From the NCBI GenBank assembly GCA_947629755.1, contig CANREY010000013.1, forward strand, positions 1-38,697: DNA of 38,697 bases, given 5' to 3'. The position numbers and the translations under genes were made by a program. The first letter of the stretch is position 1; the number at the start of each line of letters is the position of its first letter. The notes under the pieces are model-generated. The model was not told where the DNA came from. It made no database searches and saw nothing but the letters and a program-made list of their open reading frames with translations. Below, in pieces: positions 6,636-12,060 of the stretch. The stretch is from an uncultured Oscillospiraceae bacterium. Lineage in GTDB: Bacteria > Bacillota > Clostridia > Oscillospirales > Oscillospiraceae.

Positions 6636-6640
6636 TACGC

Positions 6641-6677
6641 AAAAAGAGGTAGAGCATCACACGCTCTACCTCTTTTT
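6641..6677. terminator. Bidirectional rho-independent terminator between convergent genes
   Basis: AAAAAGAGGTAGAGC-atcacac-GCTCTACCTCTTTTT. Confidence 0.9.
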
Positions 6678-6703
6678 GATTTATATCAGGTTGTGTTATT
6701 ATA

Positions 6704-8788
6704 TTACTTTTCCGCCGGGGAGTTGGAGGCGATGAAGGTGCCGAGCTGTACCCCCGACATGACGATTGCCGCCACCCATAAGGGGAGCACGCCGACGATA
6801 GCGAGTATCGCCGCGAGACACCGGACGCCGGCGTAGACCGTATTGGTCAGCGTCACACTGCGGCTGGCGCTCCTTGCGTATCTTATAAGCTTCGGAAGCT
6901 TCATAAGTCCCCCGGTGGGGATTATGACGTCCGGGAACTTGTCCGTGGCGTCAAGGCCCACGCCCAATGTCACGCCGATGTTGGCCATCTCAAGAAGCTC
7001 CCGGTCCTCACCGGCGCGGCTCACGACGATGAGCCTGTCCTCCCGCTCCTGAGTGTCTATAATATAGCGGAGTCTTGCGGCCTTGTCCTGTGGGCGGCAA
7101 TCGGAATAAATCTCCGAGATATTGACGCTCTTGCCCACATTCGTGGCGCTGAGGGCGTTGTCCCCGGTCATGAGGGCCACATTGGCCACTCTCTCCCGCC
7201 GCAGGGCCGAGGCCACGCTCTGGGCCCCCTCGCTCAGGGAGTCGGCGAAATCTATGCGCCCTACGCAGCTGCGGCCCACGCTCACAAATACGCAGGTGTC
7301 GCCGCTTACATAGAGGTCCCCCTTTATGCCGAGCCTCTCCATGAAATCTATGTTGCCCACGCCCACGATCTGGTTGCCCTCCATCATCACCATACTGCCG
7401 TAGCCCGGCTGTACGCGGTGGCGGAGTATGCGGCTCTTATCGGGCTCAAAGCCGGAGTAGTCCCGGATCGCCCGCATAAGCGGGTGGCCTGAGTAGGCCC
7501 CCGCGTAGGAGGCGAGGTAGAGTAGCTGTTTTTCGCTTATCCTCACCGGGTCCACGGCCCTCACAGTGTAATTGCCATCAGTCAGGGTGCCGGTCTTATT
7601 GAAGACCACAGAGCTTGCGTTGGCCGCGTCGGCCATCACGTCCGCCCCGGCGAAGCACACCCCGGCGGCAAAGGAGCTCTCCACGGAGTTGAGATAGGCT
7701 ATAAGCGCCGCGGCCTCGCCGTAAAAGGCGCACAGCGACAGCACCACAGCTCCTCTTGCCACCCATTTTGCAAAGTCCATGCCGTCAATAAGCGGCGGTA
7801 TAAGCGACACGAAAAGCCCCAGCACGAGCCCGCCCAGAAGCGTAAGGCGCTCTATCCTGCGCTGGTCCTCCATGGGCCTCATTCTCCCGCTCAGCACTCC
7901 ACGGACGCAGGCCATGCGCCTCAGTGTGGCCCTTGGGTCCTCAGGCTCCTCGCTTCGGCTGAGCCTGTCGGATATGATGTCCAGCTCCCGCTCGCAGTAG
8001 GCCGAGACCATATAGCGGCACACGTTGAACATGACGGCGGCGATGGCGGCCTCCACCAGATGGGCGGAGAGGCCGTAGATAATCACGGCGGCGAACATAA
8101 TGAAGCTTGCGGGAAGCCTCCCTGAGCCCATGTCGCCCAGTCCTCCCACGAAAAGCGGCACGCAGGCGATCACAAGTGCCCCGATAACGAGTACGCTCCA
8201 CGCCGGGTCCGGCAGGTCCGCCACGACGGCAGTACCGAGAATGAGCAGTGACAGCACCATTGCCGCCAAAAGGCCGAGAAAGCCGTTCGACACACTGAAG
8301 GGCAGACCGCGGGGCGGCTCGTCCTCCCACTCCTCCGCCTCCGGCGCCTCCTCCGGCTCCTCGTAGCGGCGGCGGGAGCGCCTCGGCTTTTTGGGAGCGT
8401 AGTCCTCCCCATCGTCCTCAAGCCCGTCAAAGCCGTCCTCACGGTCATAGCCGCCTTCCGGGGCGTATTCCCGGACGTACTCATGCTCCGGCGCATACTC
8501 CGGCTCCCGTCCCCGCCGTGTCTCCGGCGGATAATCCGGCTCCCTTGCGCGCTCAGGCTCCCGCTCATACCGGGCCTCCGGGCTGTACTCCGGCTCCGGC
8601 GCGTACTCAGGCTCCATTGAGCTTCTTGTGTCGGGCGTATATCCCCTCTCCGGGGCGCTCTCGCTCGTCGGACGTGGCTTCTCTCCCCTGGCCTCGGCCA
8701 GTATCTCGTCCACCGTATAGCCCGACGGGTCAACTCCGTCCATCGACTGGTCCGACAGGCCCTCAAGGTCAATATTTCTTCTATCCAT
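6704..8788 (-). CDS. P-type ATPase-like protein with degenerate catalytic motifs (predicted pseudoenzyme) and charged repetitive N-terminus
   Basis: SSVVFNKTGTLTDG (canonical VVFDKTGTLT), SGHPLMRAIRD, LMTGDNALSATNVG; the GDGxND region reads VVSRAGEDRELLEMANIGVTLG; no CPC motif and no TGES actuator. Confidence 0.8.
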   Translation of the reverse strand: MDRRNIDLEGLSDQSMDGVDPSGYTVDEILAEARGEKPRPTSESAPERGYTPDTRSSMEPEYAPEPEYSPEARYEREPERAREPDYPPETRRGREPEYAPEHEYVREYAPEGGYDREDGFDGLEDDGEDYAPKKPRRSRRRYEEPEEAPEAEEWEDEPPRGLPFSVSNGFLGLLAAMVLSLLILGTAVVADLPDPAWSVLVIGALVIACVPLFVGGLGDMGSGRLPASFIMFAAVIIYGLSAHLVEAAIAAVMFNVCRYMVSAYCERELDIISDRLSRSEEPEDPRATLRRMACVRGVLSGRMRPMEDQRRIERLTLLGGLVLGLFVSLIPPLIDGMDFAKWVARGAVVLSLCAFYGEAAALIAYLNSVESSFAAGVCFAGADVMADAANASSVVFNKTGTLTDGNYTVRAVDPVRISEKQLLYLASYAGAYSGHPLMRAIRDYSGFEPDKSRILRHRVQPGYGSMVMMEGNQIVGVGNIDFMERLGIKGDLYVSGDTCVFVSVGRSCVGRIDFADSLSEGAQSVASALRRERVANVALMTGDNALSATNVGKSVNISEIYSDCRPQDKAARLRYIIDTQEREDRLIVVSRAGEDRELLEMANIGVTLGVGLDATDKFPDVIIPTGGLMKLPKLIRYARSASRSVTLTNTVYAGVRCLAAILAIVGVLPLWVAAIVMSGVQLGTFIASNSPAEK

Positions 8789-8887
8789 TATCTCACCACC
8801 CGGTAAAATGGGAAGCGACCGAAGCCCCGAAAGCCCAAGGCCCGATCGCTTCCTTACATTTACGTCAATCGGTATTTTTTAAATATC

Positions 8888-9856
8888 TTACGCCTTACCG
8901 GCACAGCCGAGAACGTCGATGAGCTTGTGGGTCACGACGGCCTTTATGTTGGCGCGAGCCGGGGTCAGGTACTGGCGGGGGTCGAAGTGGTCGGGGTGCT
9001 CCGCGAAATACTTGCGGACGGAGCCGGTCATTGCAAGGCGCAGGTCGGAGTCAATGTTTATCTTGCACACGGAGAGCGTGGCGGCCTTGCGAAGCTGTTC
9101 CTCAGGTATACCCACGGCGTCTGGCATCTTGCCGCCGTTTTCGTTGATCATCTTCACATACTCCTGGGGCACGCTGGAGGAGCCGTGGAGCACGATGGGG
9201 AAGCCGGGCAGACGGCGGGAGACCTCCTCAAGTATGTCGAACCTCAGCGGAGGGGGAACGAGTATGCCCTGCTCGTTGCGGGTGCACTGGGCGGCGGTGA
9301 ACTTGTAAGCGCCGTGGCTTGTGCCGATGGCGATGGCAAGGGAGTCACAGCCGGTCTTCTGTACGAACTCCTCAACCTCCTCCGGGCGGGTGTAGCTGGA
9401 ATCCTCGGCGGAGACGTTGACCTCGTCCTCCACTCCGGCAAGAGAGCCAAGCTCGGCCTCCACAACCACGCCGTGGTCGTGGGCGTACTCCACCACCTTG
9501 CGGGTGATCTCGATGTTCTCCTTGAAGGGCTTGGAGCTTGCGTCGATCATGACGGAGGTGAAGCCGCCGTCGATGCAGGACTTGCAGGTCTCAAAGTCCG
9601 GGCCGTGGTCCAGATGCAGCGCGATGGGGATATTGGGGCACTCGATGACAGCGGCCTCCACCAGCTTCACAAGGTAGATGTGGTTGGCGTAAGCGCGGGC
9701 GCCCTTGCTGACCTGGAGGATCAGGGGGGCGTTCTGCTCACGGGCCGCCTCGGTGATACCCTGGACTATCTCCATGTTGTTGACATTGAAGGCGCCAACG
9801 GCGTAGCCGCCGTCGTAGGCCTTTTTGAACATCTCGGTTGTTGTGACTAAAGGCAT
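8888..9856 (-). CDS. fba: Class II fructose-bisphosphate aldolase
   Basis: MPLVTTTEMFKKAYDGGYAVGAFNVNNMEIVQGITEAA..., HLDHGPDFETC, MIDASSKPF; RBS AGGAGT upstream of ATG at 9856. Confidence 0.93.
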   Translation of the reverse strand: MPLVTTTEMFKKAYDGGYAVGAFNVNNMEIVQGITEAAREQNAPLILQVSKGARAYANHIYLVKLVEAAVIECPNIPIALHLDHGPDFETCKSCIDGGFTSVMIDASSKPFKENIEITRKVVEYAHDHGVVVEAELGSLAGVEDEVNVSAEDSSYTRPEEVEEFVQKTGCDSLAIAIGTSHGAYKFTAAQCTRNEQGILVPPPLRFDILEEVSRRLPGFPIVLHGSSSVPQEYVKMINENGGKMPDAVGIPEEQLRKAATLSVCKINIDSDLRLAMTGSVRKYFAEHPDHFDPRQYLTPARANIKAVVTHKLIDVLGCAGKA

Positions 9857-10068
9857 ATATATCACTCCTATGTAGAAATTTAGGGGTCACTTTAAGTTTA
9901 TTATACCATATCATTCGGTCAATTCAAGTATAAAAAATATTAAATTTACCTTTCCGTGGAAAAAATTCCGCTCAGCCTGTCCCCTGCCCGCGCCGCTTTT
10001 TTGATAATACTATACTAATGTATCAAAATACCGTCAAAACGGTAAAAACGCGGTCAAAAATCAAAAAT

Positions 10069-11649: not shown

Positions 11650-12060
11650 ATGAAAAAAGCGATATATATTGCGCTGGCCATTGTAATGGCCCTGTCACTT
11701 GTGGCTTGTGGCGACAGCTCCGACGCCGACAGGAGCGACAACACCAAAGACGGCGTCATCGGCGACGGCCTTGGCGACATCGGCGACGACATCAGGGACA
11801 CCGTTGACGACATCGGCGACGACCTCACCGGCATGAACAACAGCCGCCCCACCGACACCTCAAATCCCGGCAGCATCACCGGTAACGGCACCGGCAACGG
11901 CTCCGTCGGCGGCGGCACGGGCAACGGTTCCACCGGCAACGGCCATATGGGCGGCTCTACCGGCACCAACGGCACGACCGGCACCAACGGTACAAATGGC
12001 ACGACCGGCACTAACGGCTCCATCGGTAACGGTACCGGCAACGGAAGCATGACCCGATAA
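11650..12060 (+). CDS. Putative lipoprotein with low-complexity Asp-rich and Gly/Asn/Thr-rich repeats
   Basis: Signal peptide with lipobox MKKAIYIALAIVMALSLVACG; then GDxxGDIGDD and TGNG/GTNGTT repeats; RBS AAGGAGGAACT. Confidence 0.75.
   Translation: MKKAIYIALAIVMALSLVACGDSSDADRSDNTKDGVIGDGLGDIGDDIRDTVDDIGDDLTGMNNSRPTDTSNPGSITGNGTGNGSVGGGTGNGSTGNGHMGGSTGTNGTTGTNGTNGTTGTNGSIGNGTGNGSMTR

Follow-up and report, generated by a model that had tools for sequence, protein, structure and literature searches.

A genus-wide family of P1B-ATPase-like proteins lacking the catalytic parts of a pump, encoded beside the fructose-1,6-bisphosphate aldolase gene in Oscillospiraceae

The stretch of DNA analyzed here (38,697 nucleotides, referred to as the window) encodes a 694-aa membrane protein related to heavy-metal ATPases directly behind an aldolase gene (Table 1). 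An earlier note, made from the letters alone, had described an open frame of 694 codons at 6704-8788; the frame is real, but it lies on the minus strand, which the note had missed, and stops break the matching frame on the plus strand. The source genome (130 contigs totaling 2.2 Mb, completeness 97%) contains two further P-type ATPase genes elsewhere, both with a DKTGT site and a PF00122 domain; an intact ZntA-like pump is present in the same genome (C57). Next to the aminotransferase gene of the window, a short ORF that looks secreted (11650-12060, plus strand; MKKAIYIALAIVMALSLVACGDSSDADRSD...) contains repeats rich in Gly, Thr, and Asn (GTNGTTGTNG).

Table 1. Features at and around the pseudo-P1B-ATPase gene (positions refer to the window).
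Feature	Position	Strand	Basis
16-bp hairpin resembling a terminator, following the pseudo-ATPase gene	6640..6678		consensus scan
Pseudo-P1B-ATPase gene (family A), 694 aa	6704..8788	-	ORF and translation; NCBIfam/PDB relatives; homologues in 30 same-genus genomes
IVVSRAGEDRELLEMANIGVTLG (residues 587-609) in place of the GDGxND hinge	6962..7030	-	alignment and motif table
TGDN (541-544), invariant	7157..7168	-	sequence comparison
N-domain GxG (462/464) and GN (478/479), nucleotide-binding residues, invariant	7352..7408	-	sequence comparison
Invariant His435 (HP motif, N domain)	7484..7486	-	24/24 and 29/29 members
Codon AAT, Asn397 replacing the phosphorylated Asp	7598..7600	-	sequence read; N/S in 28/29 genus members
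Cytosolic connector, residues ~271-305, at the expected place of actuator/TGES	7874..7978	-	no A domain in any of 29 genus members
Acidic tail at the N-terminus (residues 1-164), disordered	8297..8788	-	AF2 pLDDT < 50 at 1-25, 35-83, 85-164
Tail motif YTVDEILAE, residues 24-32	8693..8719	-	AF2 helix 26-33; motif also present in family B tails
Strong hairpin in the gap from fba to the pseudo-ATPase gene, perhaps an attenuator or partial terminator	8811..8853	-	fold z = -4.0, 0/200 shuffles as stable
fba, class II fructose-1,6-bisphosphate aldolase, immediately upstream	8888..9856	-	PF01116 E=2e-101
Sites resembling promoters ahead of fba, the best being TTGAAT-16-TATAAT (9927-9900)	9895..9927	-	consensus scan, not functional evidence

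The only Pfam match in the 694-aa protein is a HAD domain (PF00702, 3.6e-10). NCBIfam places it among the relatives of P1B heavy-metal ATPases (TIGR01525, E=6e-49), with a score (167 bits) far below the cut-off of 346, and the closest solved structure by sequence is that of ZntA (PDB 4umv, E=3.8e-23). The test for descent within the P-type ATPase fold superfamily was met by sequence and fold homology over the P and N domains and M3-M6; the protein is a derivative of a Zn/Cd-type (P1B-2) P-type ATPase. An AlphaFold2 model, computed from an alignment (A1) of 24 members of the family to which the protein belongs (family A), comprises 399 residues at pLDDT >= 90, and its top Foldseek matches are P1B ATPases. 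The P/N part superposes on that of CopA with AMPPCP-Mg (TM 0.88, 2.3 A). The fold of these domains, the prediction of which the earlier note had proposed as a check, is thus predicted to be kept: according to the model, the ATPase fold survives, the catalytic residues do not.

The window protein failed three of the tests for an active pump (the Asp of DKTGT, the actuator TGE(S), and the GDGxND hinge), and it has none of the signature residues of a P1B-2 Zn/Cd ATPase (the M4 CPC, the M5 Lys, and the M6 Asp). Every catalytic loss that had been proposed from the letters was found again. At the phosphorylation site, the codon 7600-7598 is indeed AAT (context GTG GTC TTC AAT AAG ACC GGC ACC, encoding VVFNKTGTLTDG), and the motif reads NKTGT. 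Whether Asn is fixed in the clade, the question raised with this claim, was addressed by collecting homologues and tabulating 29 genus sequences, 28 of which carry N or S where the Asp should be; in A1, position 397 is N in 20 members, S in three, and D in one, the single family A member with Asp being L028 (DKRGT). The GDGxND hinge, likewise said to be lost, is replaced by VSRAGED in the window protein and is gone in all genus members. TGES had not been visible because the whole actuator domain is missing: Pfam returned no match to PF00122 in the window protein, the stretch between the helices where the domain is expected comprises only ~50 residues, and the domain is missing in 29/29 genus members. 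The absence of a CPC metal motif was confirmed, and it extends to all genus members compared except L032, which contains CPC, yet has NKTGG as its phosphorylation motif. In addition, the M5 Lys is replaced by Arg and the M6 Asp by Met in the window protein. As no phosphorylatable Asp, Mg-binding hinge, actuator domain, or metal site is left, the inability of the window protein to run the Post-Albers pump cycle is well supported, as far as sequence can tell.

When 60 related genomes were searched, family A was found in 30 of the 34 belonging to the same genus (the window's own counted), at 27-87% identity. The carriers are Oscillospiraceae/Clostridiales MAGs, many of them named "Lapin" (rabbit, by name) or coming from the rumen of goat and cattle. 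A close homologue with intact DKTGT and GDGxND, which would have refuted the proposed pseudoenzyme, was not found among the genus members; an orthologous active pump of which the window copy is a degraded version was rejected as well, an intact orthologue at the locus being absent in the genus. For the window gene and L004, dN/dS (Nei-Gojobori) is 0.082 over the whole gene and drops to 0.043 when only the P/N domain is counted; further close family A pairs range between 0.04 and 0.29, and dS exceeds 1 in basal and some other pairs. On these substitution ratios, family A is under strong purifying selection, and the "dead" P/N domain is the most constrained part, since dN/dS is lowest there. The test for a pseudoenzyme, catalytic losses throughout a clade under purifying selection, was met. 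A decaying gene or a sequencing or assembly error, which the lack of multiple catalytic motifs might suggest, is therefore hardly tenable and was rejected on the homologues, the shared Asn, and the dN/dS values: the frame is open, the same losses occur in 29 sequences, P/N residues are invariant, and the position after fba is conserved. Asn397 in particular cannot be put down to a sequencing error because it is common to independently assembled genomes at such divergent identities. That the protein has a conserved, non-transporting role, as had been suggested, is well supported by the lack of an intact close homologue together with the purifying selection.

What has been conserved is concentrated around the nucleotide site. 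HP and TGDN, which had been noted as retained, are both invariant in the genus members compared, and H435, G462, G464, G478, N479, T541, G542, D543, and K569 are conserved in 29/29; thus, of the tests for an active pump, the one for a nucleotide-binding N domain (HP, GxG, GN) with TGD and the P-domain Lys was passed. Of 28 invariant alignment columns, 27 lie inside the P/N domain. In P1B ATPases, the Glu located five residues before the HP His contacts adenine. This position is Gly in 20/22 main-clade members, the window protein included, and Glu in 6/7 basal members. Since this residue and GDGxND are both gone, the affinity of the window protein for Mg-ATP may be low.

Linkage to aldolase is a near-constant feature of family A. 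In 26/26 loci with a contig reaching far enough (window included), fba is located directly upstream on the same strand, which meets the test for membership in an fba operon by conserved gene order; the flanking genes vary more. Where the pseudo-pump is missing, in four genus genomes, aldolase matches are at best remote (40-44% identity), which is weak support because neighboring genes drop out together from incomplete assemblies. Within the main clade, aldolase identity is 94-98% versus 41-65% for the pseudo-pump. That the pseudo-pump diverges fast and aldolase is near-invariant disfavors a tight direct complex of the two and argues for a rather indirect tie, although direct control of aldolase by the pseudo-pump remains possible. 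A stable hairpin is found in the gap between the two genes in most loci. For the majority of basal loci (L054-L060 gaps), inspection by eye shows a stem with a T-run that resembles a terminator and has TATAAT immediately before it. No terminator in the fba/pseudo-ATPase gap passed the consensus scan. The hairpin suggests that the pseudo-pump is expressed by attenuated read-through or from its own promoter. A simple bicistronic operon was not shown, as the hairpin occupies the gap, and co-transcription is unproven. In several genera (L090, L091, L143, L144), a phosphofructokinase-like gene, as read from sequence, is located divergently beside fba.

The gene 3' of fba was also read in 80 further genomes of the family with a more distant aldolase, and a P-type-ATPase-like ORF was present there in 20, four of them intact and 16 degenerate. 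Three intact ones, from three other genera (L213, L225, and L240), form fba-arsR-zntA loci, in which the pump is separated from fba by an ArsR-type regulator, Pfam-confirmed for L213 (L213:1181-1543) and with an ELCVCD-like metal-site sequence in two of the three; the fourth (L191) is located 2.2 kb from fba. The 16 degenerate ORFs, together with L142-L145 (fba linkage of L145 unverified), amount to ~20 pseudo-pumps from at least 10 genera. Those assigned to a separate lineage are L188, L189, L192, L193, L198, L202, L208, L211, L212, L217, L237, L247, L252, L253, and L142-L145. Around 30 aldolases from other genera that are closer to the window's had no P-type-ATPase-like neighbor. In the tree, the genus clade is recovered as a single group (support 100). 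A second group unites the remaining aldolase-linked pseudo-pumps, L145 excluded, and has the intact fba-linked L240 and L213 at its base. One origin for all pseudo-pumps was rejected (AU p = 0.0022), a result of moderate weight because it rests on a quick tree with long branches; descent of the genus clade from an fba-arsR-zntA locus was not resolved. The two lineages have undergone opposite losses: the genus clade has kept the nucleotide site and shed the metal site, whereas in the other lineage the membrane Lys and Asp/Glu are each conserved in 19/19 and the HP and GN motifs are mostly gone, the His being left in 4/19 and the Asn in 3/19. Retention of the Lys-Asp pair there may be structural only. 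As these pseudo-pumps have lost the nucleotide residues, nucleotide binding is not the common denominator of the aldolase-linked proteins.

The N-terminal tail of the window protein is predicted to be disordered except for a lone helix (26-33) within YTVDEILAEAR; the tail peptide around it reads YTVDEILAEARGE. A similar motif, FSLESILAE(F/Y), with S45, I46, L47, and E49 invariant, is located in the N-terminal tail of a second group, family B (L295; L322 in the source genome), membrane proteins mostly of 730-950 aa. Family B is present in almost every genome of the genus, with weaker matches order-wide, and its gene sits between those for an rlmB-like methyltransferase and an EF-G-like protein; the loci (L322:1495-3966 in G000:C55, the source genome, and L301-L330) are unannotated. 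No Pfam family was matched by family B. Its member L295 matched TIGR01525 (E=8e-7), and the family B profile matched A1 (E=8.5e-5, probability 60%); at that probability, descent from P1B ATPases, inferred from these matches, is likely but not certain. A tight DNA pattern for the motif matched 23 times across 60 genomes; 22 of the matches belong to family B and one to family A, and the reversed control gave none. Most family A members fail this pattern because the last motif residues differ, and the sharing of the motif between families A and B thus rests on a looser alignment of the tails. An unlinked pseudo-pump, L123, ends in FTLEDILKEF at its C-terminus. As a general genome-wide motif, the tail motif was rejected: looser DNA patterns were near background or hit unrelated proteins (such as a serpin-like and a condensation-like ORF), and specificity was confined to the tight pattern.

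How a P-type ATPase deprived of its cycle might serve the cell can only be inferred, as there are no binding, expression, or phenotype data. Our preferred reading, held with as much doubt as confidence, is a nucleotide-binding, non-cycling, low-abundance membrane switch or scaffold made from an attenuated aldolase locus. The nucleotide would be held in the cleft between the N and P domains, binding being inferred because the cleft residues are invariant. Replacing Asp with Asn in pumps such as Na,K-ATPase raises the affinity for ATP; here, Asn at the Asp site would permit binding without phosphoryl transfer. Nucleotide-driven closing of N on P would then be relayed both to the helices in the membrane and to the disordered tail, where the short helix would dock a partner, and the switch or scaffold would most likely be coupled to energy status or glycolysis. 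The earlier suggestion of a nucleotide-sensing or scaffold protein matches the retained nucleotide site and the tail motif, again by inference and without binding data.

Of the alternatives, a membrane scaffold without any ligand, in which the P/N fold is a stable platform only and the tail motif recruits the partner, is unlikely but has to be taken seriously: the motif is near-invariant in family B, where even fewer ATPase motifs are left, family A and the C-terminus of L123 show it too, and the other aldolase-linked lineage does without the nucleotide residues. It leaves unexplained, however, why H435, GxG, GN, TGDN, and K569 are invariant in 29 sequences down to 27% identity and why the P/N domain has the lowest dN/dS. 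An improbable role is that of a regulatory subunit, that is, an inactive partner in a heteromer with an intact P-type ATPase such as the ZntA-like pump (C57) of the same genome. The pseudo-pump has kept the P1B fold, but its gene adjoins no intact pump, there is no evidence for an interface, and P1B ATPases are mostly treated as monomers. Transport by an unusual route, be it passive facilitation of metal or ion flux or the use of another nucleophile, is quite improbable: the membrane Lys and Asp/Glu maintained in the other aldolase-linked lineage, the CPC of L032, and the Asp of L028 would be compatible with it, but the window protein has no CPC, M5 Lys, M6 Asp, A domain, or hinge. On a wider scale, P-type ATPases may have become non-pumps repeatedly in the Oscillospirales, with the tail motif of families A and B recruiting a common partner in scaffolding or signaling for central metabolism. 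This idea, which covers family A, the separate aldolase-linked lineage (Lys/Asp kept, nucleotide site not), and the order-wide family B, is tentative and rather doubtful.

Catalytically dead members are well known among kinases and phosphatases. To our knowledge, dead P-type ATPases, or conserved dead ion pumps in general, have hardly been described; no paper joining the terms "P-type ATPase" and "pseudoenzyme" was found in the open-access papers searched, and titles and abstracts offered nothing relevant on a link between aldolase and P-type ATPase genes. Family A is a pseudoenzyme branch of the P-type ATPases and, being conserved under selection without the parts of a pump, of which few cases are known, it probably has a new, non-transport job. 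The earlier note was right on the losses and the identity of the protein; it had missed the loss of the A domain, the linkage to fba, and the other pseudo-pump families. With a genus-wide family under selection and sister lineages at different stages beside aldolase, the conversion of a pump into a non-pump is directly testable, and the intact fba-arsR-zntA loci serve as outgroup. Annotation by similarity to P-type ATPases will over-count metal pumps in these gut bacteria.

ZntA/CadA (P1B-2; 4umv, TIGR01512/TIGR01525) are the nearest known systems in sequence and fold, with the same arrangement of P, N, and M3-M6. Unlike them, the window protein lacks the actuator domain, the catalytic Asp, GDGxND, CPC, and the M6 Asp, and it has a 164-residue disordered tail and no metal-binding domain. 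The model superposes on the P/N structures of CopA (3a1c, 3a1d, 2b8e; TM 0.82-0.88, 2.3-2.8 A), from which the window protein differs by Asn at the Asp position and by the lost hinge and adenine-site Glu. Family B shares with it the tail motif and, likely, the P1B origin, but is much more degenerate, located away from fba, and order-wide. The nearest known analogue is human TMEM94, a P-type-ATPase-like membrane protein without TGES, which is reported, on structural grounds, not to go through a Post-Albers cycle and for which a micromolar affinity for AMPPCP was determined by thermophoresis (PMC12134183). Its status is disputed, with ERMA/TMEM94 interpreted as an ER Mg ATPase in a paper from 2026. 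Unlike the window protein, TMEM94 is eukaryotic, belongs to another lineage, and has kept an A-like domain and the Asp (D417).
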